Below, in pieces: positions 1 through 61,730 of a stretch of 64,000 nt of DNA. The translations under genes and the position numbers were made by a program. Location of the stretch: positions 1,054,001 through 1,118,000 of the forward strand of contig BCJJ01000008.1 of assembly GCA_039545355.1 (NCBI GenBank). Direction: 5' to 3'. The stretch comes from Trichosporon coremiiforme. Taxonomy: Eukaryota > Basidiomycota > Tremellomycetes > Trichosporonales > Trichosporonaceae. A model generated the notes under the pieces. It did not search any database and was not told the DNA's origin. It worked only from the letters and a program-made list of their open reading frames with translations. How positions within the stretch are numbered: position 1 is the first letter of the stretch; every line of letters starts with the position of its first letter.

Positions 1-3000
1 GTGGCGAAGCGATGGGTGTCCGGGGTCAGCTCGGGAGAGATTCAAAGTTAGCTCACGGCCATCTGTGAGGTATCTGGACGGTCAGCTGCAAGGACTCGAA
101 CTTTTTAGCTGCAAGTACACTCACCGTCTGACTGTCAGCTGTGGCGTATGACCATCCGCACGGCCTACTGGAGACAAAGGGATTGGTGTCGGCTGTCGAG
201 ACCACAAAAGCTGAAGGGCGACTCATGGAGGTCGATCTTGGCGTCCGCTAGCAACATAAGTGGAACAAAGCTGACCACTGACTCCACAGTACAGGCAGGA
301 GGCTGAACGGGTCAGCTGGCCGAGACTGCAGCTTGCAGCTCCGGGCTCACAGTCGGTCGTGGTCCGCTCCATCAGCTAGCTGGACCTGCTTCAACTGCAA
401 GCCGGCCCACTGCTGCAGTCAGCTTGCGGGGTTTTCAATAAGCTGCTCCTCCTTGGAAACTGTCGTCAGCTGAGGAGACATATCGCTAGCTGCGGTGCGG
501 ACTCACTGAGGACGAGCTGGGTGTCAACTCCAGGAGGAGAAGGGACGGAGAGCTAACGGTGGCCGAGTACAACTTGGGTTCAGTTTCGGTCCCGACGGCC
601 AAGCTTACAGGACAGCTTGTGAAGGATCGGTAGCGCATCGCCAGGCGTAAGTGACATTCTCTCCTAGTAGTTCTGCAGGTCAGCTGGAGAAACAACCTAG
701 CGATGCCTCCTCAGCAGTTGCAGGTCAGTCTGACCTTTTGCGCCAGTCCGCTCGGCTGGGCTGGAAGTTAGGTTTGAAAGTCTGCTCGTAAGCTGTTGAC
801 CCACGACAGGAGTTAATCAACAGCATCTGGGCTCTCTGAGCGGCTGCGTGTCCGGCTCACTACTTCCCGCATCTGGCTTTCGGAACGAGTCGCGCTGCAG
901 AGAACTGAGACGTCAGCTTTAGGCGGGTGGCCCACCAGCTAAAAGACGGATGGGATCTGAGGCTGTCAGCTAGACCAAGGATAAGTGGTAGCTGTGGCGT
1001 ACCGTGGGGTGCTGGCTGTCAGCTGCGTAGAAGTGTTAAGCTGCGGGCTTACGAGGACCGAGCTGACCGTCAACTCACACACAGAGATTTTGAGCTGTCG
1101 ATTCACATCGCGCGCAGGCCAAGTGCTGACGTCAGCTGTGATGCGGACTGTCAAAAGCTTACGGCAAGAAGACTATGCGCTCAACGCGAAGCGCATACCA
1201 CAATTCCTCGCTAATGCTGTGCGTCAGCTCGGGGCGTCGCCTTCCATAAGCTGCCACACCTACTCTCAGGCTGCCTATCAGCTTCGCAGCTTCATTACAG
1301 CTGTGGCTTACGTTGCTCTTGGGGTCTGGTGTCAGCTATTGACGAAGGATTGGATAGCTGCTGTACGCATGCACCCAGAGTAGAACTACGTGCCAGCTAA
1401 TTCGTGCGTTCTGGCAGGTAGCTTGCGACTCACCCTGCTGCTGAGCCAGGTGGTCTGAAGTCAGCTAGAGAGGAAGGGTCTGTGAGCTAACATATCGCTG
1501 TTGCGGAATCACAGAGACAATCGGCGGTCGGTTGATGGAAGCTCAGGTCTGAGACGTCAGCTGAAGAACAGACTTCTTTCAGCTGCCACGCGTACTGATG
1601 GGCTCAGCCAGCTTCGGGACCTCGCAGAGCTGCGCCTTACGTGCAGTAGGTCGCTGGGTCTGCTTGTTAGCTTCAAGACGACCTTACAGCTGCAGGACGC
1701 TCTCACATATCCTGAGGTCAGCTTCAGACCGCGAACGGAAGCTGTCGGATCTCACGCTGGAGACTAGGATCAATGGCGCTGGAGTCAGCTCTGAGACTTG
1801 ATGAGACAGCAGCTCGCTCAATTCGAATCTCTGCACTGGTCGGTCGGGAAGCACCGACTGGGGTGTCAGCTACGCTACAAGTGGGGGCAGCTGGATATGA
1901 ACAGAGCGTCTTACGCTGGTGGCGATGACCCCCAAAGTCGTGGTTGCCGTCCGTGACAGCGTCTGAGATGTATGGTGGAAGATCACCGTCAGATACCTGT
2001 CAGATGCCCCAGTCGCAGACGACACTTCGCCCTGCAACTCTGGACGCACCAAGCTTGTTGGCCGCACTCGCTGTGGCGTCGCTGTCGAGGACGCTCTGTC
2101 CATCAGCTCAGGTCGAGGCATTGGGCAGCTAACTTACTGGCTGGGACCTGGGATGAGCTCTGGCATCTCAACGAATTGGTAGCTTACGTTGGAAGAGATT
2201 CTTCTGTGTCCGCTGGGTCACATCACACCAGACAGGGAGTTGCCGGCATACTCACTCTTGGATCTACGAATCAGCTAATCCGCTGGCACAATCGAGTTGA
2301 CATCGTGAGTCTGCGCCGTTAGGTACTCACTCAGCACTGACAGCTGGTCGAGAACTTACAGACCTTATAACCTGCGGCCAGTCAGCTAGCGCATGAGGAG
2401 GAAAAGGATAACTGTGCCCTCATTCGTATGACAGTCTGGGTGTGTCAGCTCTCATTCCTCGCGAAGCTGCCATGTGCTCACCTGCGAGCCAGGGAGGTGC
2501 CACATCGACGTGCTGCTGTCCACCAAATGTCTTTGACAGGCTGGAACATGAGCTGGAACCTGGTGAAAGCAGCTCTGAAGACACTTACCAGTTCAAGAGG
2601 CTGCAGACAATCAGCTGAGACCCTCATAGTGCACCTCACTGGAACCGGCCACTGAATTCTGAGCTTGGATCAGAGCCGCAAAGCTACTAGGCACTCACAG
2701 ACTGGAGCAGAGAATGCCACCCCAGTGTTTGAAGGAATGGGGGGTTGGAGACTCACGCCACAAGCGAGTTACTGGGGCATCAGCTGAACTCTGGTTCGTC
2801 AACAGTTACGAGGACTCACTGCGCCAGACAACTGGGGCGTCAGCTGATGGTACAACCGCCTGGCTGTGAAGAAGCTTACTGGACAGTCTGATCGTTAGCT
2901 AACTGAGCCAGGCGCGGTAGCTGTAAAGGAACTCAAGGGGTGCGACTGATGCGTGTCTGAAGGGACAGCTCAGCAAGTGTACAACGTACTGTAGCTGGAT

Positions 3001-3245
3001 GAGACTTACACGGCGAAGAAGGGTACCGTGGCTTCAGCTTCCCACAACATCTCCAAGCTTTCGAAGATGACTCACTGTCCCTGGAGAGCTAGACTGGAGT
3101 GTCAGCTTGTGGAGGACGTTCGCAGCTAGGTACTGGTTATGAAAGCTGGCTTCCATTCACACGGCCAGTAGTGGGGGTCAGCTAAACCAGCCTGAAGGCA
3201 CAGCTCCCCTCAGAGCTCTAGCGTCAGCTGAACGTTACCCGTCGA
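1..3245 (-). repeat. Intron-like unit array 1 (possible intron-dense non-coding RNA)
   Basis: No convincing coding frame is present. On the minus strand the region is filled with donor-like GTGAGT/GTGAGC/GTAAGC motifs, each followed about 30-40 nt later by AGCTGAC (or AGCTAAC/AGCTGAT) and then CAG. Units I could close (donor to acceptor, minus strand) are 124-74, 350-303, 506-460, 1052-1016, 1162-1126, 1311-1271, 2481-2433, 2819-2772 and 2879-2832, that is 37-51 nt each. The last two are separated by only 12 nt. These are the same signals used by true introns in neighbouring genes. Some units are degenerate or lack a donor or an acceptor. The array runs off the left edge, so its full length is unknown. 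Whether it is transcribed and spliced cannot be told from sequence. Confidence 0.6.
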
Positions 3246-4995: not shown

Positions 4996-7400
4996 ATGGA
5001 GCAGCCATCAGAGGTGGACCCCATCGGAGCCCAAAATATGCTGTTCGCCCAGACCCAGCCGACCCAGCCCCCGCCCCCTTCCGCCCTCCTCGCGTCCCCC
5101 GGCCACCTCTTCCCACTCCTCAACGACAACAATGCTTCGGCAAACCTCGCCACCGAGCCCCTCGCGTCTTCCTCGTCTACATCCTCCATCGATACTGCAC
5201 GCAAGCAGGCGCGGCGTAAAGCTGCTCCGTACAGCAACGCCGGTTCGCGGCCCGGCGTAGAGCGTGCGACGACGGCGACAAGCTCGGCATCTAACGCGGA
5301 TGGAACCGAGGAAGACAGTAACGACCCGCCGACAAGTAACCCGAGAAAGTCACGCGGCGGCGGTGTTGCCCAGACACTTACCAGTGAGCGCTCTAACCGA
5401 GTCGTCAGCTGACCTCAGGTTGTGAAGCGTGCCGCAAGGGCAAGTGAGTTATTCTCCGCTGCTGTTCCGAGCCGAAACTGACCGTTCTCCGCAGGCGACG
5501 ATGTGAACCGTCTCCGCTAGTGCCGCCGGATCACCCCGACGTCGCGAAGCTGCCGTGTGCCCGATGCCGGCGTTTCGCTCTTGACTGCGTCCGCATGCGT
5601 GTATCTCGACGCAAAGGCCCAGCCCCTGTGTAAGTCATTCTGGTGCGTATGGTCGCTAATTTCGTAGCGACCTCAGTGCCATCTCCGATGCAGCCCACGG
5701 CTACACGCAGGCTGCCGCCAGTGTCTTGGAACCGGCGGTGATCGATCCAACCAAGACGGCGACGTCCAGTACGGTGCAGGCGAGCCCGCTGAACTTTGAC
5801 GTCAACAGCCTTGCAGCGTGAGTGTAACTGCCTTGCCTGAAGCACGGGGCTGACAGCATGCAGCACCAGTCTGCCATCGCCCTCGTACCCCCTGCTTGCA
5901 GGATCGTCGCCGAGCACGTGGACAGACAACTCCGCCATCCCCACAAGCCTTGATCAAGTAGTCGCCCCGGCGGTCATGGATAACATCATTGGCCTCTTCT
6001 TCGACTACGTCTATCCTCTTACGCCCGCTCTGCACCGGCCTTCGTTTATGGCGGACCTCGTGGCCCGGCGAGACAAGTCAGATCCCGTCTTCTTCGCCCT
6101 CGCGCTTGTCGTCTTGGCGTCGACGTTGGTCCAGGTGCCCCGTGTGCTGATCAGCCTCGACAAGGACGAGGTCGAGCAGCTCGCCCGCCGATGCGTGCGG
6201 GTTGCTCGTGCCAAGACGGCTTTCATCTGGGACGATGCGGTGCCGATGCGAGCAGAGTTCGGTGAGTCATGTGGCGCCGAGGGTACTCTGGCTGACGATG
6301 CAGTTGTTATTTTCTACTTGGAGGGAATCGTTCATCTTCTTCTCGGCAATAACACGGCACATGTGATCTCAACGGCACAGGCCAACCAGTGCGCCCTCGC
6401 TCTGCGGTTGAACGAGGAATCGGTGAGCTTGCCGGTCCTGTCTACGAAAGCTGACAACCAGAGTTACGAGAACCTCAGCCCGATCGAGTCGGAGGTGCGC
6501 CGGCGCATCTACTGGCTGCTGTTCCAGGCCGACAAGAGCACTGCCTGTCTTCGGGCGCGTACGATCTGCCTGCGCCTGGAAGATGCTCAAGGTCTCCGCC
6601 TTCCCTCGGAGGTCGACGACGAGCAGATTACAGCAGCCGGAATCTTACCTCAGCCGGTCGGCCAGACGCCACTCATCTCGGGCTTCAACGTTGTCACGAA
6701 CCTCTTCCGCATCCTGAACGACGCGCTTTTGCTGCAGCGACGGAAGGCACCGCCGACCGTGGACAGCATCCTGGCCGATCTGCAGAACGTCAACCAGTTG
6801 CGAGACCGAACTGTGAACGCAACAGCTGAAGTTGCGTCTCCACTGAAGTCGCGCTCGGCCTTTGACTCGCGAGCCGCCAGCCCGGCCAAGGGATGGGAGG
6901 CGAATCTGCAAGCCCGTTTCATGGACTTCTTCCAGACGGCGTCGGACTCGAGTCACGTCAACAGCTTCCTGGTCATGCAGGGCAACATACTGGTCACTCA
7001 GCAAGTCGTGCGGCTCGTCCTGTTACAGACGCGGGAGGCGCTGTTGACCCAGCTGGCGGCGTTGACCCAGATGCCGCTGCAGGGTGTCGGTGGCCTCGCC
7101 GGTGTTCAGAACAGCGAAGTCGCCGAGGACATTGCCTGCGACCTGCTGGACGGACTGAATAGCCTGCCCGAGGAGTGCCTGGCGACGAACGGTCCGTCGC
7201 TGGTGCAGAAGGTGCGCTTCGTCGCGATCCAGCTGATGGAGTGCTCGACATCGTCGCGGCCGCAAGCCGTTCGAGCGTGAGTTTACAGGTCTGATGCGTC
7301 AACTGACATCCACAGCCAGAGCCTGCTGATGCAGTTCCTGTCCGTCCTCGGTGTCATTGAGGGAATGTACACCTTTGGCAGGGACGTTTCGGCGGAGTAG
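4996..7400 (+). CDS. Zn2Cys6 fungal transcription factor
   Basis: Seven exons fit: 4996-5383, 5419-5443, 5495-5629, 5668-5817, 5864-6261, 6304-7276 and 7316-7400, giving 717 aa. A binuclear zinc cluster is assembled across three exons: C131-x2-C134-x6-C141-x17-C159-x2-C162-x6-C169. The 25-nt second exon carries the first two cysteines. Downstream, FDYVYPLTPALHRPSF (from about 5998) is the hallmark opening of the fungal-specific transcription factor middle domain, which continues through the long exon. The family binds CGG-type promoter half-sites as nuclear regulators; the target genes here are unknown. The start ATG sits in a good context (cacc-ATG-g). The N-terminus is low-complexity (Pro/Ser/Ala). 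The 17-residue loop between Cys3 and Cys4 is longer than usual. The intron 6262-6303 is 42 nt and stop-free, so retention would keep the frame. Confidence 0.85.
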
Positions 7401-34624: not shown

Positions 34625-35320
34625 CTTGGAGGACAGCCACACACTTAGACTTGTATGCATCACATCGACATTGGACACCAACGCTCGGAGCAGCCACATT
34701 GGCATGTTGGTGCAGCAAGAGCCAACACAACACGGACATGAACAACGCACTACCATTCTCCCCTCTTGACTCTGACATGACCGAGAGTTGACCGAGGACT
34801 TGGGAGCAGTCGCGGAAATAGAGTTGCGCCGAAAGAGGTCCTTCCGCGACGAGAGTGTCAGTGAGATGCCGAATCTGACGTCTCGGCGGCCGTTGAGGGA
34901 CGACCCTGTCGACTATGGGAACTGTTTGCTTAGTGCACTGACTGGGTGCACTGACTGGGTGCACTGACTGGGTGCACTGACTGGGTGCACTGACTGGGCT
35001 GGGGCTGGCTGGTACAGGGTGGGTAGGTAGGTGCACGTGACGCCGTTCCATGTTAAAGGTGGGAGGGAGGCTAAAACGAGCGGCTCTGGTCAGGGCTCGG
35101 CGCACGCTTCGCACGCAGCGTTCCGACTACGTCGCTCTCCGACTGTAGGCGCTCAATCTCGAGGGAGGGTGGGGACCAGGCACGCATCGGTCACTGGGTT
35201 CAGTACTCAGTCATAGCCGCAGTCGGCATGCAGCCACCCGATGAATGAACCATGCACGGCACACGCATCGCTCTCATACCGCTACTCGCTTCTCCCAGTC
35301 TTGATCAAGACACCGCGCCC
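34625..35320. other. Intergenic region between ENP2 and dolichol kinase
   Basis: Contains a 13-bp minisatellite (34933-34997) and a CACGTG at 35034-35039; otherwise no gene or RNA signature. Confidence 0.4.
34933..34997. repeat. 13-bp minisatellite, five perfect copies
   Basis: The unit GTGCACTGACTGG is repeated five times without change. Each copy contains the palindrome GTGCAC and the sequence ACTGAC. Confidence 0.9.
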
Positions 35321-38295
35321 ATGCCGCCAACGTAATCACTTGCATACCACGCTCTCTACTTTCCCACTCTCCTCTCTCCACCTCACACACCACTTTCACG
35401 ATCCTTACCAAACTGTCCAACCCCGCCCCCGCCTCCCGCACCTCGCGCCCGCGGGCCCCGGGCTCCATCCACCAGCACGCCCACGGCCCGCGCCCCCGCT
35501 CCGTCTCCCGCAGCTCAAGCAGTCCTTCCCCCGAACCTCCCTCTTTGCGCAACACTCCCCGCGGCGCCTTCTCCCCTCTCCCTGTCGTGTCTAACAGCCA
35601 CGGCAACGTTCGGGAGAAGAAGCGCTCGTCCTCGCGCTCGTCGCACCGAAGACAGTCGACCTCGAATGGCGTTCCGCAGCGCCCACCGCTCAGGCCAGAC
35701 GGGCCAGGTTGGATGAGCCATTATCTCGGCTCAGCCTCGAGTGCCGGCGGCTGGATGCCAGAGTCGGTCGACGGGGACGGGTTCGTCTTCGTCAAGGCTG
35801 ACGACACCGAGGTCGAACATCAGCAGAAGCGACGCGGCTCCAGTTCTCCGAATGAGGTTCGACCAGCCCCCGCAAACGGTGCACATGTCCGGACGGGGCC
35901 GCCAAAGAAGCTGCCCCCAGACGTCACTGCGCACCCTGTCCAGGCGCGTGTGACGCTGCTCCCGTCAACAGTCCTCGGAATACGCTTGAACAGAAAGCGA
36001 TGCGAGGACGCGATTCTCCTCTCTGCCGTCGTGTTTGCGATCTACAAGCTGGCGTACGGCTGGGGCGAGTGGGCCGTTGCTGGAGGTAAGCTGCAAGTCC
36101 GTCTCCAAGCTGACATCAGAACTGCTCACGCTACTCATCATCAGCGTCGTGTACGTGACGCTTCGCGTGCGCACGATTCCGCGCGGCGAGGTTGAGCTTG
36201 CCCGACCAAGATCTCCGGTTATTGGTACGGGCACCCGGGAAAAGGCGAACCGGCGCTCGGGGCAGTTTGCCAGCGCAGTGTCCTCTGTGTCCCTGCACAG
36301 CCGGGGCGACAGCCGGAGCTCGACCATGAGCGTCGCGTCGACGCTCGACGGAGAGGATCCGGCCAGCGTCGGTTCCCGCGGTTGCGTCTTCGGTACCGAG
36401 GAGAGGGAGTACAGGTGAGCTATCCGCATGGTCAGTAGCTGACGGCAGGGAATGCCTGGACGACGGAGCGTTGTTCGCCCTGCTTCTGGCGCCGCTGACG
36501 GCGGCAGCGATGCTGCACGCTGCGCTGACGCGGCTGTCCTCTGAGCCCGAGACCGCCGTCCCGCAAGGGTGGGTCATCGAGCCGCCACTGGTGAACCCTT
36601 CGACTCCGATCCGACACATCACCGGCGTCGCCTCGAGCGTGAGCGACGCGACGAAGGCGCTGTCCGCCCTCACGATCTCGAGGCGTAACGCCGTGCAGCT
36701 GTTCACGCTGTGTTCGTTCGTGCTGCTCGTCCAGCTGTCCTGGTCGCTGCGGCACGAGCTGAAGCGCGCCAAGTCGTCTGTCGCCGCGGGCGAAGAGCCC
36801 TCGGGCACGTACTGGCTGAAGCGGGGCGAGCTGCGGCGCAACCTCGCTGTCATCGGGTTCGCGTTCTTCGTGACTGCTTGCTGCCTCGTGGTCAAGGCTG
36901 TGACGGCACGCATTGGCCACGGTGTCTGGAGCGACATGACGCCATCGGATATCGTCATCGCGACGCTGTTCTACCAGTTCTGCATCTATGTCTGTGTCCG
37001 CTTAGCTAGGCGCGGGTTCACGCTCGGCGAGATGGGCATCGTCACGCATGCGGGCACGGCGCTGTTCATGGAGACGGTGAACATGACGAGAACAAAGGTG
37101 AGTTGAGACGCCGCAGGTGTCAAGGGCCAGTGCTCCTCCACAGAGTAGCTAACGGCAGATTCCCCTCTTCCGCACAGAGTACATCAAGACGTACCGCCTG
37201 CCGACGCCGCTTCTCATCTTCCAACTGTCTCTCATCCCCGGCAGTCTACTGACGGGTTTCCTTCTCTCGCCGCTGCTCTACCTCTCCCGCCAGCTCGCAC
37301 AGCGCCCGGTCCACCGCCTGCGCTTTCCGCACGAGAAGGTGCAGCACCGCCGCCTCCTAGCCTTGGGCTTCTACGCCGGCGCCGTCCTCATCGTCACCGG
37401 CGTCGTCGGATCCTGGGCCTGGTGGTGTCTCGGCAAGCGCGACCCGTGGCTCTGGACACTGCGCTTCCTCCTCCTCGGCCCGCACGCGTGGACCCGCCCA
37501 GCTCTCATCAGCTACTGGGGCCTGCTCGCTCTGTTCTCCGTGGCCGCGTGGCAGAGGCAACTGAACCGTGCGCGGCGGCACAGGACTTACGACGTCAAGC
37601 CGAAAGCATCGGCCGGCTCTGGCCGCGACTCGGGAAGCGAGGCCGTCCGCGTCGCGACGCAGATGATGGACGCCGCGGACCAGCGCATCCCGACGCTCTC
37701 GATCAACGCGAGACGTAAGTCGTTCCACGCTCTCGCCGTCGCCATGTTCATCCCTGGCATCGCGATCGACCCGGCCTTCACGCATCTCGCCTTCTCCGTC
37801 GCCTTCGCAGCCTTCACATTCGTCGAGTACGTGCGCTACTTTGCGCTGTGGCCGTTCGGACGTTCGATCCATCTGTTCCTGAACGAGTTCATCGACCACA
37901 AGGACAGCGGCACTGCGATCCTGTCCCACTTCTACCTCCTCGCCGGCAGTGCTTGTCCGCTGTGGTTCGAGGGCCAGTCACGGCTTCTGTCCCTGCTCGG
38001 CGTGCTCTTCCTCGGAATCGGGGACAGCATGGCGTCGATTGTTGGGCGGAAGTTGGGGAGTACGCGCTGGTCCCCGGCGAGTGGGAAGACAGCCGAGGGC
38101 AGTCTGGGCTTCACTGTGTCTGTCGTGGGAGTCGCGGCGGTACTCTGGCTCGTCGGTGCCGTTGAGGCCTTCGACCTCGTCGCGTTCACAATCACGACGG
38201 CGCTGAGCACGCTGCTGGAGGCGTTCTCGGCCCAGAACGACAACCTCATCTTGCCCGTTTACGGGTGGGCGATCGGGACTCTTCTCGGTGTGTGA
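35321..38295 (+). CDS. SEC59: Dolichol kinase
   Basis: Exons 35514-36085, 36120-36414, 36449-37097 and 37159-38295 are well supported. The intron at 36086-36119 is only 34 nt. The C-terminal membrane domain carries dolichol kinase signatures: RRKSFHALAVAMFIPG, FLNEFIDHKDSGTAILSHFYLL, and the CTP-binding GDSMASIVGRKLG followed by GKTAEGS. Many transmembrane helices precede it. The enzyme phosphorylates dolichol with CTP on the ER membrane to supply dolichyl phosphate for N-glycosylation, GPI anchors and O-mannosylation. The start is uncertain. The frame is open back to 35305 without an ATG, so I propose a short first exon at 35321-35331 (MPPT join, 182-nt intron with weak signals; total 887 aa). 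The first in-frame ATG otherwise is 35713. Confidence 0.85.
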
Positions 38296-38792
38296 GCGCG
38301 AGCGCAGCGAGTGCGAATGTCTCCCGAGCGAGAAAAACCCAAGAGACAATTCAAAACAGCCATGAAACGTTTCGTGGCCCCTTCTTCGACTCATTGTAGC
38401 ATCACTTCTTTTCACTTAGTTTTCGACTCATCCAGTCCATACCGCATAGCCCTTGCATATCTGTTTCCTTGCATATCTACCATACCTCTTACACTAGTGC
38501 CTGCATGAACATTGTCGAGCTCTCTGCATTTGTTGAGCCGTGGAGAGGATCGTCGGGCATGGGGCAGGGTATGGGGACGGGCGCTCGTGGCGCGCCTCGG
38601 CTCGTGGTTGCAATCCTCGGACGATCCGCTCGATGTGAGTCAGCTCGGACCTCGCAGTGCAATGGCAACGTTGCGCCCTCTTCTCGCTGTGCCGCTGTGC
38701 CATCAGGTGATCCCGCGCCCAGGTGTGCGTGTACGAAACCTCTTTCCGTCCTTCACATTGCCCATTCACTCATCCGTGGAGACGAGCAAGTT
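38296..38792. other. 3' flank of dolichol kinase
   Basis: AT-richer 3' flank; no gene recognised. Frames that run into the following repeats translate to low-complexity sequence only. Confidence 0.4.
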
Positions 38793-38858
38793 TGGCGAGT
38801 AGGTTGGCGAGTAAGTTGGCGAGTAAGTGGGCAAGTAAGTTGGCAAGTGAGTTGGCGA
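38793..38858 (+). repeat. 12-bp minisatellite of donor-like TGGCGAGTAAGT units
   Basis: About 5.5 copies of TGGCGAGTAAGT with small changes. Most copies contain GTAAGT or GTGAGT, so the tract is a string of 5' splice-site look-alikes leading into array 2. A GAGGCGG(T/C)-type run follows at 39011-39050. Confidence 0.8.
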
Positions 38859-39054
38859 ACACATCCAACACATGGAACACATGGGCTAACTGACATCAGT
38901 GTCGGAGGATGGATGGGTACGCTGATGTGTCGTGTCCCCAGAGCTGACTGTCAGGTCTCTGGTCCCTAGTCTCTGGTCCCTAGCCTCTGGTCATGGAAGG
39001 GGGAGAGGGGGGCGGTGAGGCGGTGAGGCGGCGAGGCGGCGAGGCGGCGTGTGG

Positions 39055-41203
39055 TGAGTTGACTTCAAAGTGCCGAACTGACGTCCAGTCTCTGGAGGAT
39101 GGCAGGGTGAGCTGTTCTTTCTGGAGCGTGAAGCTGACGGTCTGGTGACTGGTCTCTGGTCTCTGGTCTCTGGTCTCTGGTGACTGGTCTCTGGTCTCTG
39201 GTCTCTGGTCTCTGGTNNNNNNNNNNNNNNNNNNNNNNNNNNNNNNNNNNNNNNNNNNNNNNNNNNNNNNNNNNNNNNNNNNNNNNNNNNNNNNNNNNNN
39301 NTCTGGTCTCTGGTCTCTGGTCTCTGGTCTCTGGTCTCTGGTCTCTGGTCTCTGGTCTCTGGTCTCTGGTCTCTGGTCTCTGGTCTCTGGTCTCTGCTCA
39401 TGGAAGCCGGACAAGGGATGTGACAGTGGTGAGTGAATTTCAAATTGCCAAACCGACGTCCAGTCTCATGAATGAAATGGCAGAGTGAGCTGTCCGTCTG
39501 CAACCTTCGAGGCTGACGACCAGATCTCCTGCCACAAACCAGGTCTCTTGCCTTCGGGTCTCTCGTCTCAGATCTCTGACAGAGGGAATGAGAAGAGGTG
39601 GGTTAGCCTGTGCGTTTGGGAAACTGACGACCAGTCTCTGGATGAGTTGCGGTGAGCTTATGCAATTGCCTTGCAACTAACTATCAGCCCTCGACATCTG
39701 AAGATGGAGCGGGTCGTGGGGGTAGACGTGGGGGTAGAGTTGAGTTAACATGTAGTACACGTGTTGAACTGACGACTGGCAGATGTCTGGAGTAGAGGAG
39801 GCTGGATTGGTCTATGACCGTTCAACTGACATCCAGTACTTGTGTATGGAAGATAGAAGAGGTGTGGAGGTGAGCTGCATGGACTTCGCAGAGCTGACGA
39901 TCGGACTTTGGGAAGGGGCGAGGATGGGTGTGAGTTTACATGCTACTGTGCTGCGAACCAACCCCCAGCACTTGTGTCTGGAGGGGCATGGGGTGAGCTG
40001 TGGCGAGCGCTACGAGCTGACCGTCAGACTTCGAGCTGTGGCCGGGAGAGTAAGTTGACATGGTGCTGAATGAAACTGGCGTGCAGTCTTCTTTGGCTGG
40101 AGGAGGTGAGTTGTGACGAGCTTAGACCAGAACAACAGATGAGATGTAAGTTGGGCAGCCGTGACTTGAACTGCCACGCAGCTGCGGGCATAACAGGAGG
40201 CTGAGGAGCAGGAGAGTTGAACTGGGGCAAGCTATGAAGAGGGCGTGAGTTGACCTGAGTGCTTCAACAACTAACATGCAGTACTGAAGCTGTCAAGATG
40301 GAGGAGACAGAGGTGAGCTTTCGTTCTGCGTGCGAAGCTGACAGTCAGTGGTAGCCAGGGGCGTGGTGAGTAAACAGGCTATGGCTCGATTGAAAAGAGC
40401 GGGAATCTCTTTCCTATTCCACAGCTGACGATCATAGCATCGAGGCGGACGCGGGTGTGAGTGAGTTAACATCGCCTTGCGTGAACTGACACGCAGCATT
40501 AGCACTAGGAAAGTGAGGATGAGGAGAGGTGTGCCGAGGTCATTAGAGTATAGCTGACGGTTTCCAGATGGGAGGTGAGCTGACACGCCGTGAAACCAGC
40601 GGTGAAGGTGAGTTGGCTTACAGCTGCTAAGGATTGACGTCCAGTCTTGCACTCTGGAGAGAGATGCGAGTGCGAGCTGTCGTGAACTTCGGCGAGCTGA
40701 TCTTCAGGACGTCTGCTCCAGACTATGGGGCATAAGGCAAGGGTAGGATTGAGTTCCTTTCAGCAGACGAAGAACTGACACACAGTACTCATATGTGGAG
40801 GCGAACGGAGTGCCTTGGGGTGAGCTAAAGCGACATTCCTGAGCTGACATTCAGAACTTCTGCTGAATACTTCTCGGCATGAGGAAAGGGCGGGGTAAGT
40901 TACCTCAGAGACTTGGTGAACTGACAAGCAGACACGCCTAGCCAGCAGGAACGAGCTTATAGCGCGTTACTCAAGCTGACATACAGACGAGGCTCGGGCC
41001 GACAGAAGGATAGAGGGCAGGTCAGTTGGCATGCCACTAGTATTTGTGTGACATGGTGCCTAAGAGGTAGTGAGCTGGCTCCACCTGGCCTTGAGCTAAC
41101 AATCCAAGCGGACGTTGACGCAGTAGGGGCCGGCAGACATGGTCCAATGGAATGAGATGTTTGAGGTCAGTTGGAGAATCCTTGTCTTTGAACTGACATG
41201 CAG
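39055..41203 (+). repeat. Intron-like unit array 2 with alternating A and B units
   Basis: Two unit types alternate on the plus strand. Type A opens GTGAGTTGAC/GTGAGTTAAC/GTAAGTT and closes GAACTGAC..CAG: 39055-39089, 39429-39463, 39598-39634, 39930-39968, 40050-40086, 40146-40181, 40245-40281, 40461-40496, 40608-40644, 40749-40785, 40895-40931, 41166-41203. Type B opens GTGAGCTG and closes GAGCTGAC..CAG: 39485-39523, 39652-39687, 39870-39904, 39993-40027, 40313-40348, 40672-40707, 40820-40854, 40951-40986. Most units are 35-39 nt; spacers are purine-rich and often start ACTT/TCTCTGGA and end GG or AG. Some units have a mutated donor (TTGAG, GCGAG, ACGAG) or no final CAG. No coding frame crosses the array. 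It may be a non-coding RNA with many minimal introns, or a diverged satellite. Confidence 0.7.
39151..39396 (+). repeat. (TCTCTGG)n tract containing an assembly gap
   Basis: Tandem TCTCTGG heptamers flank 85 N bases at 39217-39301, so the true copy number is unknown. The heptamer equals the first seven bases of spacers in array 2 (after the acceptors at 39089 and 39634), suggesting it expanded from a spacer. Relatives occur at 38954-38996. Confidence 0.9.
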
Positions 41204-41542
41204 GATCCGTCTTCGGTTGACGTCAGGGAGTGAGGAACGGAGAGGGTCAATGTTGTTCGGCGCTAGACAGCGAAGGGACTGGCGAGAAGTTGGGATGTGT
41301 TTATTATCAACTGGCGAACAGAGCTCAGCAAGGAGGGCAGTGCTGTGGTGCGCTCGTCAGGTCGTCGGTTGTTCAGGGAGGACTGGGGGGCGAGAAAAAC
41401 CATATGCCGGACATTGTTTCAGGCGTCTCTCAAGACTCACGACACTGTCCGATTGGGACCCGGCCATCGACCCTGACGCGAGGCAGAGCCGCGGCTGCTT
41501 AGCTCTGTGACATCTCCCGAAAGCTGAGGTCAGTTGTCAACA
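41204..41542. other. Flank between array 2 and the broken F-box-like gene
   Basis: The intron-like periodicity fades after 41203. No conserved coding signature. Confidence 0.35.
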
Positions 41543-42765
41543 CTACATCACTATCACTCCACACGTTTCTCGCTCGACCTCTACTCTCAATGGCAGCTGA
41601 CAATGCCCCCATTCACCATTACCCGAAACAAGCCCAGATGAAGTTCCTGGTATCATCAAGGGGGTGCAGACGAGATCCGGGTCAGTCTTGTGGCTGAGGA
41701 GACTGCAGAATCTCAGGGCGCCGATCCTCTCCGCGCCGACGATGGTGACATGTCGGATATTCGATGCAGCCAAAATGCCAGCCAAAACCACAAGGATCTT
41801 CATGACGGCGCGGCACTTGGCCGGCGTGCGGCAGCGGTGATCGCAGGTTCCGAAGAAGTGCCCACACGGCGATCTCCATGGGAACTCTGCATCCGTAAGC
41901 GGCTGCCAGATTACTACCGTGAGCTTGACTGTCGTGGAGGGCGGTTTGGGTCGAATACCCCATTGCGGCACGAGACGACAGTCGTAGCGCCGGGGCAATT
42001 CGCCATTGTCATAGTCGTATCAGTGCCACCGGTCCGCCGAGTCAAGCACGACGATGAACTCCTCGCCGCTGGGCCACCGAGCAAAACCTGTCGCGCATTG
42101 CGGATGACAACCTTGCGCGGATTCACGCTCAGAACCCCGCCATCGCCATCTTTGAGCATGTAGCATACAACCGGCAGTCGGGCCGCGAGTGCGCTTCGTT
42201 CCTCGCATCCACCGTTGTGACGGGCTCTTGGCAGAATCCTTGGTAATCATGGTGCGTGAATGCGCCAATGAGCGTACCTGCAAAGACCTCGTGAACAAGG
42301 CACTCGTGTAGCTCGACGTAGAGCACGTCAACTTCGTTCTTAGGTATCCTTACGTATCAGCTGTCCACACCCCAGCCCGTAGAACGCGCTGCAAGCGTGC
42401 GCCGTGTGCTTCTTCAATTCGAGCCGGCGAATACCATCGAGCAGGCGTCGCCGCTCCTGGCCGTTGAACTCGAAGTTACCCAGTTCCGGCAGATCCAGAC
42501 ATGGAAATGGGTTCGGCGCCTGTGGAAGGTACACTCCAAATCGTGACAAGCTGCCGAAACGGTAAAAGAATGGGCGAATGGGCGTGTGAACGCGAGGAAA
42601 GAACTTAGATACACCTCGCAGCTGAGCCAGGTCGTCATGCCCAAGCTTATCGCACACCATCTCCCAAAGCTTTACCGGGAGTCCGAATCCTAAAATGGCA
42701 TATGTGATTANTTGTCCTCGAATTGCTGGGTTTCGTGCTGTGTGGCGCCAGGAAAGGTCCATCAT
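41543..42765 (-). pseudogene. F-box-like protein gene, broken by frameshifts
   Basis: The minus strand codes for a protein-like sequence spread over several frames. From 42765 it contains LPVKLWEMVCDKLGHDDL, which resembles an F-box helix opening, then FFPRVH...FGSLSRFGVYLP to a stop near 42340. The sequence then continues sensibly one base out of phase (NEVDVLYVELHECLVHEVF, about 42330-42130), later as WPSGEEFIVVLDSADRWHW (about 42080-42020) and YDCRLVPQWG...VMKILVVLAG...RHVTIVGAERIGAL (41998-41700). No splice pair with CTGAC explains these shifts, so I read it as a decayed gene; a rapidly evolving multi-exon gene or sequencing indels are alternatives. There is one ambiguous base at 42711. 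F-box proteins of this kind are substrate receptors for SCF ubiquitin ligases. Confidence 0.5.
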
Positions 42766-43247
42766 TTACTGCGATTGTTGATGATCGAGAGACCCTTGCG
42801 AGCGTTGATGGAGAAATGGGTGGGGTATGAGTGCGCTGCGGATCAGTTCAGTGAACGTGAGAGTGGACCATAGAGTGGAGGTCATGTGCGGGGTTGTGGT
42901 CGTTGCTGAAACCGCCGAGCATGGACAGGAATCGGACCGACATTTCGACACGCTCGGCTCATCATGAACTCGACGCGAAGATACCATTTGCAGCCTACTC
43001 TGTAACCGTTTGTCTAACTGAATGCAGCTAGTATGGTCGGGTCAGAGCGAGCGCACGAACCCCCATGGTACAGTGTGCCAAACGTTTCGGCGGTAGGCGC
43101 ATGGAGTGCTCATGGGCAACACAGAGCCACCGTTTCGGAGCGTAGCTTCGCTAGATATCGAGTCCCCCAAGGCGCCCACAGCGCGGAATCCGGTTGCACA
43201 ATGTCTATGCTGCTGTATGCATCTCTGCTATGTCTAGAGATACATTC
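42766..43247. other. Intergenic region, broken gene to PRP31 3' end
   Basis: 482 bp with nothing recognisable; it probably includes the PRP31 terminator. Confidence 0.35.
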
Positions 43248-44876
43248 CTACTTCTGCATGCCTCCCGGGAGCGTGTTCTTGTCCTTCTTGACGTGCGTGA
43301 ACGTTCCGCTCGCGAACCACCGGTCGTTCGCCTCCTGGACCTTCTGCGCCGCGCTGAGACTCGGCGTGACGATCTCGATACCCTGAACAGGGGTGAACGA
43401 CAGCGAGGTCGAGGTACCGCTGGCCGAGTCGGAGGAGAGCGCACTGCGGCCGAGCATCTGGGTACGCAGCTTGTTGGCGCGGGACAGGCGCGCACGACTG
43501 CGCTGGTCGACGACCTGCGCGCGCACCTTGCCGCTTCCGATCATACCCAGGCCGACGGTCTCGTCGTCGACGCCCGTCTCCTCCTCTGGCTTGCCGAACT
43601 CCATCCGGTTCTGCAGCTTCTGCAGCTCCGTCTGCGCATAGCGTTCCTTCAGCGCACGCGCGCGGCGGCCACCACGCTTCTTCCGCGCCGTTTCTTGCGG
43701 CACAGGCAGAGCCTTGATCATCTTGTTGGGTGGCGGCTCGGACATCTTCGCGATCTTCTTCTCAAGATCCCGCAGGAGCTTGCGCCCGTAGCTTCCGTCA
43801 CGAGACGACTTGCCCGCATCGATGCGCGCCGCGAGAGCGACCTTGGCAGCGACAGCACGCTGAGCTCGCCACCGGTCCTCAGGCTGAGCACTCTGTACGA
43901 GTCCGGACTGGAAGATGAAGCCTGTGTGTCGTTGCTGTCCCGCCGCGCTCAGATGCGTCGTCGCCAGAGACTTCTTTAGCGCACCGTACAGCATGACGTT
44001 GCACGAGGGTGCGCGAGAGAAGGCGTTCAGACCACCGGCAAGACCGAGCAGCTTGGCTGCAATGTTCGTTCCTACGATCGCACTGATGTTCGGTGCGACA
44101 GCGGACATTCGACTCTCGACGAAGCGGAAGATTTCCTCGCGCGCAGACTTGAGCTGGTTCGCAACCTCGATCGCCTTCAGCGTGGTCTGCCACTCGGCCT
44201 CCGTGATGGGCTTGCCGCGGGAGCTCGTCGCCGTCAGCGTGATTGAGAGCACGGTCGCTGCCGGGAGTGATGACGGAAGCGTCGCCTTCGTGAGGTCGTC
44301 AATGTTGCCAATCGCCTGCACGGCGGCGATGTACGTCCATGGGTCGTTGATGAGCTGCTCGAGCTCGGGGAAGCGCACGCCGTAGTGGTCGCGGATGAAC
44401 TTGTGTACGAGCATGATCTCGTTGTCGACCTCGACGCTCATGTTATTCGCAGTCACGACAAGGTGGTACTCGGGGTTCTCCTCGAGCGCTCCGGCCGCGG
44501 TCGACATGTCGGTCGGCGAAGCGGTATACCGCTCGATGTCGGCGAGCACCTCCTTCAGCTTCTTGCCCGTCATCAGCTTCGCGACCTTGGTCACGTCACC
44601 ATAGTCCGTCATGTCCGTCGCGTTGACCTCTTCCTGATCCAGCTCGTCGGCGGGCCTAACGCCGCCCTCAGGCACAAAGCCGACGGCATCGGTCCCGTCC
44701 TCCATCTTCAGGTCGCCATCCTGCTCGACGTCATCCTCGAGGTCGTCGAGTAGTGACCGTTTGCCGTTGGCGTTGAGAGCCGGTGGCGGCATCGAGGACG
44801 ACGACTCCTGAGGCGCCTCCTCCTCTCCGTCTGAGAGGCCATCGAGGTCCGCGAGCAGTCGGTCCGCGAGAGACAT
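43248..44876 (-). CDS. PRP31: U4/U6 snRNP protein PRP31
   Basis: A single exon of 542 aa, starting MSLADRLLADLDGLSD. An upstream in-frame extension is not used because 44876 begins the conserved N-terminus. NOSIC-type helices (NEIMLVHKFIRDHYGVRFPEL) lie near 152-172, and the Nop domain follows with NISAIVGTNIAAKLLGLAGG at 263-282 and GLNAFSRAPSCNVMLYGALKK. The basic C-terminus (ARKKRGGRRARALKERYAQTELQKLQNRMEFGKPEEE) is the family's tri-snRNP-binding region. Prp31 clamps U4 snRNA and Snu13/15.5K and tethers U4/U6 to U5. Intronless. It is divergent from the PPR gene over about 665 bp. Confidence 0.95.
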   Translation of the reverse strand: MSLADRLLADLDGLSDGEEEAPQESSSSMPPPALNANGKRSLLDDLEDDVEQDGDLKMEDGTDAVGFVPEGGVRPADELDQEEVNATDMTDYGDVTKVAKLMTGKKLKEVLADIERYTASPTDMSTAAGALEENPEYHLVVTANNMSVEVDNEIMLVHKFIRDHYGVRFPELEQLINDPWTYIAAVQAIGNIDDLTKATLPSSLPAATVLSITLTATSSRGKPITEAEWQTTLKAIEVANQLKSAREEIFRFVESRMSAVAPNISAIVGTNIAAKLLGLAGGLNAFSRAPSCNVMLYGALKKSLATTHLSAAGQQRHTGFIFQSGLVQSAQPEDRWRAQRAVAAKVALAARIDAGKSSRDGSYGRKLLRDLEKKIAKMSEPPPNKMIKALPVPQETARKKRGGRRARALKERYAQTELQKLQNRMEFGKPEEETGVDDETVGLGMIGSGKVRAQVVDQRSRARLSRANKLRTQMLGRSALSSDSASGTSTSLSFTPVQGIEIVTPSLSAAQKVQEANDRWFASGTFTHVKKDKNTLPGGMQK

Positions 44877-45541
44877 GGTCGGATGGGTTTTGTTGGTTTT
44901 GTTGTGACTGACCGACCAACTTGTTCGTCGCAGGTGGCAACATTGCAAGTCGCGACGCGGGGATATAGGGGGTGACGGATAAGTTATGACGGTGTATGAT
45001 TGCCACGCGGGGAGACGTCAGTGTGAGCCTTCACCGTAGGGCGACTCCGAATTTCAGCCCCCTACTACGAAAGACAGTCTCTGGCTCCCGAGAAGGCTTA
45101 TGCATGGGAAGGATCTCGCTCCCGATCCGACGCGACCTGAGCGACCGACGCCGGCTACGTCTGTCTCTGTTGTGACTGCACTGTTCATCACAACGACCAG
45201 CTTTGACGACCGCACACGAGTTGCCAGCTCGTTGAGACCAGCGATTCAGCAACCGACCAAGAGGAAGCCGTTGATTTCGTGGTGGCAGCGGTCGCGGAAT
45301 CAAAACGACACCTGACTTCACCGTATCAGCATTTCCGTCCGAGACCACCACCAAAAGTCTGGCCTCCGCGATTTTCCGTCCACTGCCCAACCCCATATAC
45401 CACCAAAGCGCGTGCTTCGCGACGACTGAAGCGCCGCCGACACGCCCGCGAACCCCGCCTCGACACTCCGACCCCCAGCTCACTCGTGCTATGCTCTCTT
45501 TCGACTGCTGAGCTAGCTGAGACGCATTCCTTACGAAGGCG
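44877..45541. promoter_or_regulatory. Shared promoter of PRP31 and the PPR gene
   Basis: 665 bp between divergent starts. No TATA box or named site stands out; short frames here lack family signatures. Confidence 0.35.
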
Positions 45542-57616: not shown

Positions 57617-59525
57617 CTAAGCTGGGGCGTCATCCTCCGTGCGTCGCTCCCCGACCCTATCGCCATCGCCGATGGCACGCTCATCCTGAACCTCCTGGAC
57701 TTGCTGTTTGCCAGGCAGGCGCTTCTCCTTGATGAACGTGCTGGCCAGGAGCGTGCAGCAAGCCAGGACGGCGGCGACGGCCCACGTCGCCCGCAAGCTC
57801 GCGAGATACGCCTCGACAGCCTGCTCCTTCTGCCCCTGGGGGAGCGTGTACATGAAGCTCTTCTGGCGGACAATGTTGTTGATGAGTTTCCGGCTACCCG
57901 GGCCATAGAACCTCTTGTGAAGTTCGCGGACGAGCGCCCAGATCTGCACGCAACCGCCCAGACTGATTCCCAGCGTGGCGCCGAGAGAACGCACAGTGTA
58001 CAGAAGCGCGGTCGCTTTCGGCATTGTCGCAGCGTCTACGGACGCAATCGTGCTGACGAGAGACACGACGAGGAAGATGGCGTACCCCAAATTACTCGGC
58101 AGCACGGTCGCGTAGTACGCCCACTGCGGCCAGGAGGATGTCCACTCTGTCGCGGCGATGGCGCAGGTCAGAATGGGCGGGATGAGCGCCAGCTTGCCCA
58201 GGCGCGTGTAGCTCCCGACCCCGCGGCGGATGTACCACCCCCCAATGAGCGAACCGAGCGCGAGGCCGACACCGGAGCAGATACTCACGACGAGGCCTGA
58301 GGCGGAGCCGCTGGCGCCAATCAGGGAGAAGTACAGCGGCACATAGAAGAGGAACATCTGGCTTGAGCAGAGGAGAAGGAATCCTGAGAGCCAGATCGCA
58401 CGGAGTTGGCCGCGCGCAAACATGCCGAGCGGGATGATCGGGTTCTTGGCGCGGAGTTCGGCGCGGAGGAAGAGCACGAACGTGACCGCTGCAATGGCAA
58501 GCAAGCCAGCGACGCGAATGTCGGACCAGGAGAGGAAGAATGCCGTGTGGAAGCTCAACCCCACGATCAGCGCCGAAAAGCTCACAAAGAGTCCCGCGAT
58601 GCCCGCAAAGTCGAGGCCTTTGAGAGCCGTGGAGAGTGGAATCGGCTGCGCCCGCACCATTTCCCCCGCCGTCGTCGAGGACGGCAGCTTCCGGTCCGGC
58701 AGGAACGAGCGCACGGTCACAATGCAGAAAAGCACGATCGGCAGTTGAAGGTAGAACGCCCACGGCCACTCGCCCCGATCCATGATCCACCCGGATACTG
58801 GACCACCCAGAAGTGCCCCAAGTCCGAAAATACTCATCATGATGCCCTGGTAGAAGCCGCGTTCCTGGAGTTCGACCAGGTCAGTCAGAATCACGGCGGA
58901 ACAGGCGAGAAGGCCGCCGCCGCCCAGACCGCTGACGGCGCGCCACGCGATGAGAGCCCAGATACTCCTCGACAGACCGCACATCAATGACCCAAGTCCG
59001 AAGAGAGACGCGGCGAGAGTCATTGCGTCCCGACGGCCCAAGCTGTCGAGAAGAACGCCGTACACTGGAATGCCGAGCGTGTTCGTCAGCGAGAAGGAGA
59101 AGCCGAGATAAGACGTCAACTCGGAATGCGCGAACTGCGACGCCAGTGTCGGTGCGAGCACGGGGATCGCAGTCGACTGCAGTGCGAAGACAAAGTTCGA
59201 GGACCAGATGCCGGCGCTGCGTGTCAGCTATTTCACGAAGTCCAGGAAGCTCGGACTCCCTGCAAAACATCTCAAAACATGCTTCCAATGACCGCCATAT
59301 GCGGGCTAGAAAGCTATCTCAAACGTGATAGGCGCATCTTCGGCTCCCGCCGGAGAGTACTCACAGGATGGCGACGAATCTCGGCGTCGACAGCTCATAC
59401 TTCAATGGCGGAGGGCGATTGCCAACAGCGGCCTTCGGTCCACTCGCCGCAGCCCCATTGCCGTTCCCATTCGTGCGGCCGTTCCCGTTCGCAACGAGGG
59501 GTGTTCGTTCGCTAGCGCCCGGCAT
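57617..59525 (-). CDS. Major facilitator exporter, 14-TM DHA2-like
   Basis: Exons 59525-59365 and 59216-57617 (intron 148 nt) give 586 aa. After a polar Asn/Gly-rich N-terminus the exons join at VAIL-AGIWSSNFVFALQSTAIPVLAPTL, the first membrane helix. The motif GVLLDSLGRRDAM is the cytoplasmic motif A, and RAVSGLGGGGL matches the antiporter-type motif of drug:H+ families. About 14 hydrophobic helices can be counted. Relatives include fungal multidrug/toxin exporters and the vacuolar basic amino acid transporters; the substrate cannot be assigned. Array 3 lies directly upstream on the same strand, so a long transcript starting within the array is possible. Confidence 0.87.
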
Positions 59526-59748: not shown

Positions 59749-61730
59749 ACTCACGGAGCTCATAGAATCTGAAGTTAGCTGAGAAGTGTAGGTCCTTCAT
59801 AGCTTACGGGTCGCAATGCGCGTCGAACAGGATGGCGCTTTGTACGACTCCTGGCACTGTGGGTTAGCTGGGGATGGGCATTGTCCTAGCTCACTTTGAG
59901 ACATATGCAGAACTGATGTAGTGGACGGCATCAGCCTACCTTGAGCTAAAATAGCTCACGCTGAAATCAGCCGATTGCCAGGAGCTGTTCAGCTTACTGA
60001 TAATAACAGACAGGAAGCTGGGGCTAGCTGGCTCTTGGGATGAGTGGTTGAACGGAGGATCACCTACATTTTGGCAAGGCTGCTCTTTCTTCCGTCTTCC
60101 GCTTCAGTCAGATTCGCGAAGATAGGCACGAGGATAGGGGGGGATAAAAGTAGAGTTTGGGAGTCGTGCGTCTGTCGCTGGTGACGTGGGTTCACGTCGA
60201 CACACCACCTGCGCCCCTCGACGTCCGACATACCATGCGGCCTCTGATTCTCCCGACTGGCTTCACAGCAACCCCTTCAAAAACCCAGAACCTGCACATG
60301 TCGCTTCGCTATCTGGATATGCTCCAGCGGCTGGGTGAAATCGCTCTGAGAATTGCAGGATTCCGCTTCCCGTTCATCGTGGCGGTGGCACACCCTTCTC
60401 AGGCCTGCGCGTGCACTACCGTTCTCCAACCTGAGAGTCAGCTTGCAACTGCGGTTGGCCAGCTCGCCAGTTCTTCGGAGTGCAGTCCCCGCGGATCTGC
60501 ACGTTAGCTTGGAACTGTGGCTGGCCAGCTGATCGGGAGCCGCGCCCCAACACTCAGCTCTCGTCAGAGGTGATCACAGCCCTCGTCCTCTAGCCGAGAT
60601 TCGCCTCGTGAACGTCTGTTCCAGGCTGTTCGTGTCAGCTAACAAAGGAGATATGTCTAGCATACCCTCTGTTCCGCCGCAGATGTTGTTGGCACGCGCG
60701 ATTGATTATGGGCTAAGGCTGTAGTTGCCATGGCTCGCGGTCCGCCATGCTGTTCGTCAGCTCGGTGACAGATACACAGCAGATCACCAGTGTTCTGAAC
60801 CTGTGCAGTTCCACACCGCAACTCTTTTCAGCTGACCTTGGTAGCTGATGGGAGACATCTTTTAGTTCACCCATGCTAACGTGCTCCACGGCTTTATCGT
60901 CTCGGTTGAATGTTAGCTAACCTGGACGACGCATTAGCTTACAATATTGACCGCACACTGGATGTCAGTTCCCAGCCACCGATGTTGTCTTCAAGCTTAC
61001 CTCCCCATCTCTCGACCGGCGTCCCCTCAGGCTGGAGCCAGCTGTATCTCTCACCACAGCAGGCCACTGCCCCGTCTTTCTCTTCGCGCACAATCCATAG
61101 TGCTGACATGTCAGGGTAGTAGCTCTCCGTCAGAATCGAGTATCTGCTCGTCAGTTCACAGTTCAAACGTTGAAACTCACCTCCTGTCACTTTCCAAGCA
61201 GCCTGGTGTCGTCAGCTGCGTGCTGTCAGTTTGCAGCTTACCCTCCACTTCCGGTAGGGCGCGTGACTGAGATATGCTTGAGGATTCACTGCTAGCTCAT
61301 GAGACCGACTGGGGTTCAGCTTCTCGTCGAGGGTGGGACAGCTCTCACCAGACTGAACTATGACCAGTCTCAACATTGGCAATGTCAGCTTTGGATCGAT
61401 CCGCCAGCTCACCATCCTCTGAAACACCACGCTCTGAGATGAGTTAAACGTCCACTCATTGGTAGCTCACGAGTGCCTGCAGGTCAGCTTTCAGCAACAT
61501 GGTCAGCTACACTCTTACGCCCTGATGGCGTCAACTTCGTTATCTTACCTGTTAGCTCGCTGTTCCGTCCACGGAGAGGTCTGGCGTAAGCTGGGCAACC
61601 TTTCTGCAGCTTACAAACAGTCTGTGGGTCAGCTGGAAAAGGTGAGATGGTAGCGTGCCGATCCGCGCCTGTTGAGGGAGGTGACACCGTGTCCTGTTGT
61701 CAGCTACTTTTGCCCCTGTTCGCAGCTCAC
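59749..61730 (-). repeat. Intron-like unit array 3 (possible intron-dense non-coding RNA or leader)
   Basis: Minus-strand units with donor, branch-like and acceptor motifs include 61730-61694, 61518-61477, 61241-61203, 61180-61144, 61000-60958, 59997-59961, 59894-59857 and 59807-59769, each 37-43 nt. Unit 61180-61144 is type A (GTGAGTT...GAACTGAC..CAG) and 61241-61203 is B-like (GTAAGCT...AGCTGAC..CAG); their spacer is 22 nt. The middle (about 60000-60900) is sparser. No coding frame spans the region. It ends about 220 bp upstream of the exporter ATG on the same strand. Confidence 0.6.

Follow-up and report, generated by a model that had tools for sequence, protein, structure and literature searches.

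The window analysed here is a 64,000-nt stretch of the Trichosporon coremiiforme genome (C8:1054001-1118000 of the 42.0-Mb assembly). It holds an array of minimal intron-like units of two alternating forms, A and B (array 1; 38847..41203, +), which is flanked by a dolichol-kinase-like ORF (37153-38295, +) and an F-box-like ORF region (about 41600-42800, -). Both flanking ORFs are named by eye from their translations, and a Pfam search returned no match for the dolichol-kinase-like one. The F-box-like region adjoins PRP31 (43248-45017, -), which carries Nop and Prp31_C domains. Among the named relatives of this PRP31, those of Vanrija come first (75-77% identity), with those of Kwoniella, Cryptococcus and Cutaneotrichosporon next at about 70-75%; three further proteins are closer to it than Vanrija, one of them at 95%.

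At the start of array 1, Tandem Repeats Finder reports about six copies of a tandem 12-mer, CGAGTAAGTTGG, which contains GTAAGTTGG (38783..38858, +). These copies are repeated A-type donor-like sequences in front of the single branch and acceptor of the first A-type unit, which is 53 nt long and has an intron-model score of 26.5 (38847..38899, +). A B unit follows at 38917..38954. An earlier note on this DNA had set the start of the array at 39055, i.e., downstream of both units; the first unit it listed begins at 39054.

Units were located with a trained intron model and with a consensus scan, and all units given in this paragraph lie on the forward strand. Besides the B unit just mentioned, both approaches identify the A units 39054..39088 (intact donor GTGAGTT, branch AACTGAC and CAG), 39429..39463 (degenerate), 39598..39634, 39740..39782 (donor TTGAGTT), 40050..40086, 40146..40181, 40245..40281, 40461..40496 (intact) and 40895..40931, together with the B units 39485..39523, 39993..40027 (intact), 40313..40348 (intact), 40820..40854 (intact). 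The scan adds the A units 39930..39968, 40749..40785 (donor TTGAGTT) and, as the last of the array, 41166..41203 (donor GTCAGTT). It likewise adds the B units 39107..39143, 39870..39903 and 41070..41105 (all without a CAG acceptor), 40529..40567 (weak donor), 40575..40623 (weak), 40672..40707 and 40951..40986. A B donor is combined with an A branch at 39652..39687 (scan), the sole discordant unit among the 25 of the scan. Further weak units, noticed by eye near 40102, 40605 and 41022, fall below the cut of the scan and are not among the 25. A tract of TCTGGTC heptamers lies at 39141..39396 (+) and is split by 85 N (39217-39301), which are either an assembly gap or a masked stretch.

The intron model was built from about 228 seed introns (the size of a near-identical set) of a 264-kb sample, with array 1 excluded and the introns of arrays found later left in. 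It predicts 21 non-overlapping introns at 38700-41260 on the plus strand and 0 on the minus strand; each of the 21 follows the U2-type consensus, i.e., donor, branch and acceptor at the usual spacing. The consensus scan finds its 25 intron-like units at 38.9-41.2 kb (+), compared to 1 in the reverse complement and 0 in the reversed sequence. Shuffled sequence, the control put forward in the earlier note, gives a mean of 1.85 introns (maximum 8) for the model over 60 dinucleotide shuffles and a mean of 0.44 units (maximum 2) for the scan over 100 mononucleotide shuffles. The at least 20 minimal units counted by eye in that note are thus confirmed by either approach, and their length of 35-39 nt holds for most of them. 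With regard to density, we ranked 2.2-kb stretches of the 264-kb sample, each strand separately, by their number of introns with a score of at least 18. Array 1 (19) is second only to a further array of the window (array 2; 24 and 23), followed by array 3 (13), and values elsewhere are at most 9. A CAG acceptor is present in 22/25 units of array 1 and absent from 3/25. Several of the exons are about 20 nt long, and the smallest spacing between units is 7 nt. Missing acceptors and gaps of 7 nt would make serial splicing hard.

In type A units, donor positions +4 to +7 read AGTT and the branch has AACT, while type B units have AGCT at both sites, such that each pair is complementary. Within array 1, the donor type, set by T or C at +6, is concordant with the branch type, set by A or G, in 24/25 units. 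Donor types alternate in 19/24 steps (permutation p=0.006) and branch types in 17/24 (p=0.05). The alternation described in the earlier note is therefore present, but its wording, 'almost without exception', is slightly too strong. From the introns that it cited as real counterparts, 7277-7315 is indeed A-type, whereas 5384-5418 combines a B branch with the donor GTGAGCG.

The agreement between donor and branch extends across the genome. Exact patterns on both strands of the whole genome sum up to 1290 GTGAGTT/AACTGAC and 1879 GTGAGCT/AGCTGAC matches, compared to 415 GTGAGTT/AGCTGAC (wobble, U opposite G) and 106 GTGAGCT/AACTGAC (mismatch, C opposite A). This corresponds to an odds ratio of 55; homeologous gene pairs cause many introns to be counted twice in these totals, such that the effective number is smaller while the ratio should hold. 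Reversed-pattern controls for the four cells are 0, 0, 0 and 3. The wobble cell is four times the mismatch cell, in line with the pairing prediction. Among 193 introns of the sample outside arrays 1 and 2, the highest donor-branch mutual information (0.102 bits) is found for +6 and the base before CT. A Watson-Crick partner is present in 44% of these introns compared to 27% after branch swapping (maximum 33% in 300 swaps). Respective values are 67% vs. 38% (maximum 62%) for array 1 and 82% vs. 46% (maximum 76%) for its homeologous array on contig C22. That is, A and B would be compensatory Watson-Crick forms of one 4-bp stem used genome-wide, not two intron classes. The 'alternating intron types' of the earlier note thus stand as two alternating forms but not as two kinds, since both appear to express the same donor/branch complementarity.

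The complementary arm can also lie inside the intron. The pattern CAGYT, 13-21 nt, ARCTGAC, 2-7 nt, CAG has 2023 matches in the genome (reversed control: 42). A hand count of 100 listed matches gives 7 CAGTT/AACTGAC, 8 CAGTT/AGCTGAC, 5 CAGCT/AACTGAC and 80 CAGCT/AGCTGAC (Fisher p=2e-4 among these 100, with an AACT branch in only 12/100). Such internal arms prevail in array 2, which comprises 57 intron-like units on the minus strand from 3009 to -2012 (window part 1..3009, continuing to about C8:1051989) and has a homeolog of 53 units at C22:559751-564945. Here, it is mostly an internal AGCT that matches the AGCT of the branch. Among the 104 introns of array 2 and its homeolog, 76 combine an AGCT branch with an unpaired donor; 58/76 of these have an internal AGCT, and 9 have TCGA, the reversed control. 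Three introns of this set have an AACT branch, with the internal arm AGTT in 1 and AGCT in 2. Introns without a donor arm are on average longer than those with one (45.5 vs. 38.6 nt, both homeologs). The loop between the arms is about 14-20 nt in array 1, where mostly donor arms are used, as well as in array 2, where the arms are mostly internal. Branch swapping produces no clear drop of the pairing score for array 2 (0.61 vs. 0.65 swapped) or its homeolog (0.74 vs. 0.69), because nearly all of its branches are AGCT. Two spliceosome variants were considered as the source of A and B. Since an internal arm distinct from the donor also covaries with the branch, intramolecular pairing is favoured over two versions of the spliceosome.

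Next to covariation, we considered predicted stability. The mean predicted pairing probability of the stem is 0.47 in array 1 compared to 0.35 with swapped branches, and 0.30 compared to 0.22 in ordinary introns; shuffling the loops leaves it unchanged. When three introns were folded, the donor/branch stem was the lowest-energy fold in one (40313-40348) and not in the other two. A 4-bp stem across about 17 nt is thus predicted to be marginal. For the A-exon-B dimer, a covariance model was built from a 10-sequence alignment. Covariation of its pair counts does not exceed that of shuffles, because A and B occupy separate helices.

Both genes flanking array 1 are duplicated on contig C22, with 96-97% protein identity and their order kept. 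Haploid Cutaneotrichosporon assemblies are reported to have a size of about 20 Mb (PMC10568926). Given this size and the second copies on C22, the present assembly looks like that of a hybrid or otherwise doubled genome. The window was compared with the corresponding, syntenic gap of C22 by blastn with a word size of 7 and an E threshold of 1e-3. Alignments reach up to 38304 and start again at 41483 with one 25-base piece, followed by longer pieces from 41665; across the longer pieces of both flanks, identity amounts to 76-88%. Within 38305-41482, i.e., for the whole of array 1, blastn at these settings finds no match to the C22 gap. Though nothing aligns, the gap holds a second A/B array with 16 units in the consensus scan (3 on its reverse complement) and 17 units predicted by the intron model. 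Donor and branch agree in 16/16 units and types alternate in 12/15 steps (p=0.011). PRP31 lies near this array on the opposite strand, too. By eye, the terminal unit of the homeologous array resembles unit 41166-41203 of array 1.

The strand distribution of the units also bears on a DNA-level reading, in which a dimeric protein would bind inverted GTSAGYT/ARCTGAC repeats. In its favour, some units, e.g., GTCAGTT...AACTGAC (41166-41203), form inverted repeats without any mismatch. The arms are, however, asymmetric between strands: the left one is mostly GTGAG, the right one is CTGAC and is followed by CAG in 22/25 units, and there are 25 units on the plus strand vs. 1 on the reverse complement (16 vs. 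3 in the homeolog). Since the same patterns also match thousands of times genome-wide, we consider a DNA element highly improbable.

With regard to conservation among the units of array 1, donor and branch positions carry 1.0-2.0 bits (one at 0.70), loops 0.01-0.53 bits and exon positions 0.03-0.6 bits (except 0.98, 0.73 and 0.70), a contrast that is biased upward since the units were picked by their splice signals. The non-alignment of the spacers to C22 is independent of this choice. Because arrays are found at both homeologs, their spacers cannot be aligned and information is concentrated in the signals, the splice signals seem to have been kept while exons and loops turned over. Some likeness between exons remains. 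In array 1, exons of the same type are more similar to each other (mean z 0.99 and 0.91) than exons of unlike types (0.41, compared as plain means), and the homeolog shows this tendency weakly (0.23 and 0.20 vs. -0.07). This fits array growth through duplication of A-B dimers, with the signal in the homeolog being weak. For the intron loops of array 1, mean z values are 0.58 (A-A), 0.10 (B-B) and 0.24 (A-B).

Neutral remains of a tandemly duplicated A-B intron dimer in decay would be in line with the slight similarity left among same-type exons in the window and with the units that lack a CAG. Decay would, however, erase donor and branch as quickly as loop and exon, yet information sits mostly in the signals, and an array is still present at the homeolog although nothing aligns. 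We therefore judge this origin quite unlikely. A satellite that mimics introns, which the earlier note had offered as one option, is disfavoured on the same grounds, i.e., information lies in donor and branch and not in loops or exons. Moreover, similar head-to-tail copies as in a tandem array were not found by Tandem Repeats Finder in 39055-41203, where the TCTGGTC tract is the sole tandem repeat; short 14-mer, 8-mer and 12-mer repeats are reported just upstream of 39055. Elsewhere in the window, the 13-mer GTGCACTGACTGG, which includes CTGAC, is repeated five times without mismatch at 34933-34998. A search of the genome with the array 1 DNA (skipping simple repeats) returns only itself and one 60-base match just upstream on the same contig. 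Introner-like elements of fungi are multiplied introns as well, and their near-identical copies are alike over their full length. In contrast, the loops of array 1 show little or no similarity (z 0.58, 0.10 and 0.24), and near-identical copies were not found.

Conserved intron structure combined with unconserved exons is also known from schistosome micro-exon genes and aphid bicycle genes. Array 1 has the same pattern (introns kept, exons not), and could accordingly be a micro-exon gene for a fast-evolving protein. Splicing in silico, based on incomplete splice predictions (21 units in array 1, 17 in the homeolog), yields longest stop-free runs of 109 codons for array 1 and 83 for its C22 homeolog, compared to shuffled means of 101 and 95. 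For array 2, the run is 159 codons vs. a shuffled mean of 146, and 132 vs. 151 for its homeolog. Exon lengths that are multiples of three are not in excess (8/20 in the window, 3/16 in the homeolog). As far as these incomplete predictions go, coding by splicing is not supported, in agreement with the earlier note's statement that there is no open frame to interrupt, and we rate a protein-coding gene as improbable. The strand opposite array 1 has an unspliced stop-free run of 150 codons and that of the C22 homeolog one of 209, both given as raw lengths with no control. No Rfam family reaches its gathering score in the window, i.e., no known RNA host such as a snoRNA was matched.

Homeologs apart, four further intron-dense loci exist besides array 1, two of them inside the window. 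The predicted exons of array 2 range from 3 to 292 nt, with no long frame. Array 3 is looser, with 14 intron-like units at 59769..61730 (-), and its longest spliced frame within the 3.5 kb examined is 162 aa. It lies upstream of an ORF on the same strand (57617-59227, -; transporter-like by eye) and might be the long 5' leader of this ORF. The other two loci, C1:2037746-2040982 (+) and C5:736713-733769 (-), were found via the micro-exon pattern. Both look noncoding, consist mostly of B units and do not align to each other; the C1 array is just upstream of an apparent coding start on the same strand. Arrays hence come in different flavours, i.e., A/B in array 1, internal arm in array 2 and mostly B at C1 and C5.

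Exact A-exon-B matches (exons of 8-38 nt) number 39 in the genome, 4 of them in array 1 and 3 in its homeolog (two distinct starts). No other locus has more than 2, where arrays with degenerate signals escape this pattern. The earlier note knew of no comparable class of locus; while more intron-dense loci exist, repeated exact A-exon-B matches are confined to array 1 and its homeolog. We also asked whether alternation is a general guard against exon skipping. A hand count of neighbouring types around micro-exons in 100 listed of 370 matches gives 5 A-A, 9 A-B, 18 B-A and 68 B-B, such that no genome-wide preference is visible among those listed. At C4:1543395-1543785, four micro-exon matches follow each other at a spacing of about 120 bp; one 30-base match is identical at C2:509061.

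Given the signals that persist at the homeolog and the lack of a long frame, the intron-dense noncoding RNA that the earlier note had listed among its options is the best supported reading. Here, array 1 would encode one noncoding transcript, in which minimal spliceosomal introns, about 25 or more in number and mostly 35-39 nt long, separate micro-exons. We regard it as rather probable that many of the units are transcribed and spliced. Within each intron, a 5' arm AGYT, provided either by donor +4 to +7 or by CAGYT inside the intron, would pair with ARCT in the branch sequence ARCTGAC and leave a loop of about 14-20 nt. This transient stem would bring the donor beside the branch, such that each tiny intron is probably self-defined by its own matching pair. 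The A/B alternation most likely results from array growth via duplication of A-B dimers. The transcript would be spliced intron after intron, with each one recognised through its own donor-branch match. Splice signals, and hence serial splicing, would be maintained while exon and loop sequences are free to vary. With nothing but the signals kept, selection likely acts on serial splicing as such. We hold this complete explanation, i.e., a noncoding, intron-dense transcription unit of self-pairing mini-introns, with moderate confidence, while any single use of the RNA that can be named at this point is unlikely.

One such use is a source for nuclear RNAi that is coupled to the spliceosome, i.e., crowded introns would stall spliceosomes, and the transcript would serve as the template for double-stranded RNA and siRNA. 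In the related Cryptococcus, SCANR acts on transposon transcripts that are inefficiently spliced, where introns signal to nuclear RNAi (PMC5851062). The present genome offers a like setting with Piwi-domain (Argonaute) matches at 4 loci and RdRP-family matches on 5 contigs; moreover, introns are tightly packed and several exons are about 20 nt long. Unlike those of SCANR targets, the splice signals of array 1 are near consensus and not weak, such that only crowding could cause the stalling. Furthermore, bar the 60-base match just upstream, the search that skipped simple repeats found no other genomic copies to silence. We thus see an RNAi source as a doubtful, though not far-fetched, option.

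A spliceosome trap, another option of the earlier note, is possible. As a decoy or buffer, the transcript would titrate splicing factors and could feed back on the nearby PRP31. It is the presence of introns and not the exon sequence that persists, and PRP31 is found nearby on the opposite strand at both homeologs. Array 1 is, however, separated from PRP31 by the F-box-like minus-strand ORF region, and further arrays are located at other places in the genome, which renders the decoy improbable.

A broader version of the noncoding reading assigns the arrays to a class of intron-dense noncoding RNAs that work via serial splicing. Intron number and self-definition would be selected, exons would be disposable, and one helix with two codes would serve the whole genome. 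A/B alternation would stop neighbouring introns from pairing across a micro-exon, because the A branches on either side offer no partner to a B donor. In being spliced serially, the RNA could then, for example, feed nuclear RNAi or buffer the spliceosome. As micro-exons elsewhere show no preference for alternation, such a role against mispairing would be special to array 1. We consider this version speculative and, as a whole, unlikely.

With regard to known systems, the donor/branch stem is best compared to the zipper stems in introns of Saccharomyces cerevisiae (PMC12350175, PMC2536676). The present case differs in that donor positions +4 to +7 and the branch nucleotides are themselves complementary, and in that the complementarity sits in introns of 35-39 nt. 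Yeast zipper-stem modelling found these recognised splice-signal positions unable to pair in the A complex (PMC12350175). From the features expected of a zipper-type stem, complementarity and covariation are observed here while predicted stability is marginal. With regard to the transcripts, the miscRNAs of Cryptococcus neoformans are the closest parallel. For these, 1,434 introns in 1,197 miscRNAs, 765 miscRNAs with spliced introns, and exons down to 1 bp in this genome are reported (PMC3990503). As in our reading of array 1, these are spliced transcripts of a related yeast without obvious coding capacity. They differ in intron density from the present arrays, identified at the DNA level, where a single 2.3-kb stretch has 25 intron-like units and array 2 has 57. 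Judged by titles and abstract openings, the literature searches brought up nothing on such donor/branch covariation or such arrays.

The covariation of donor position +6 with the base before CTGAC, which includes compensatory as well as wobble combinations, is evidence at the sequence level that recognised splice signals pair with each other. It bears on the question of how very short introns are defined. The arrays represent natural minigenes with dozens of putatively self-pairing introns, and they raise the question of why a cell should retain transcripts with irrelevant exons.
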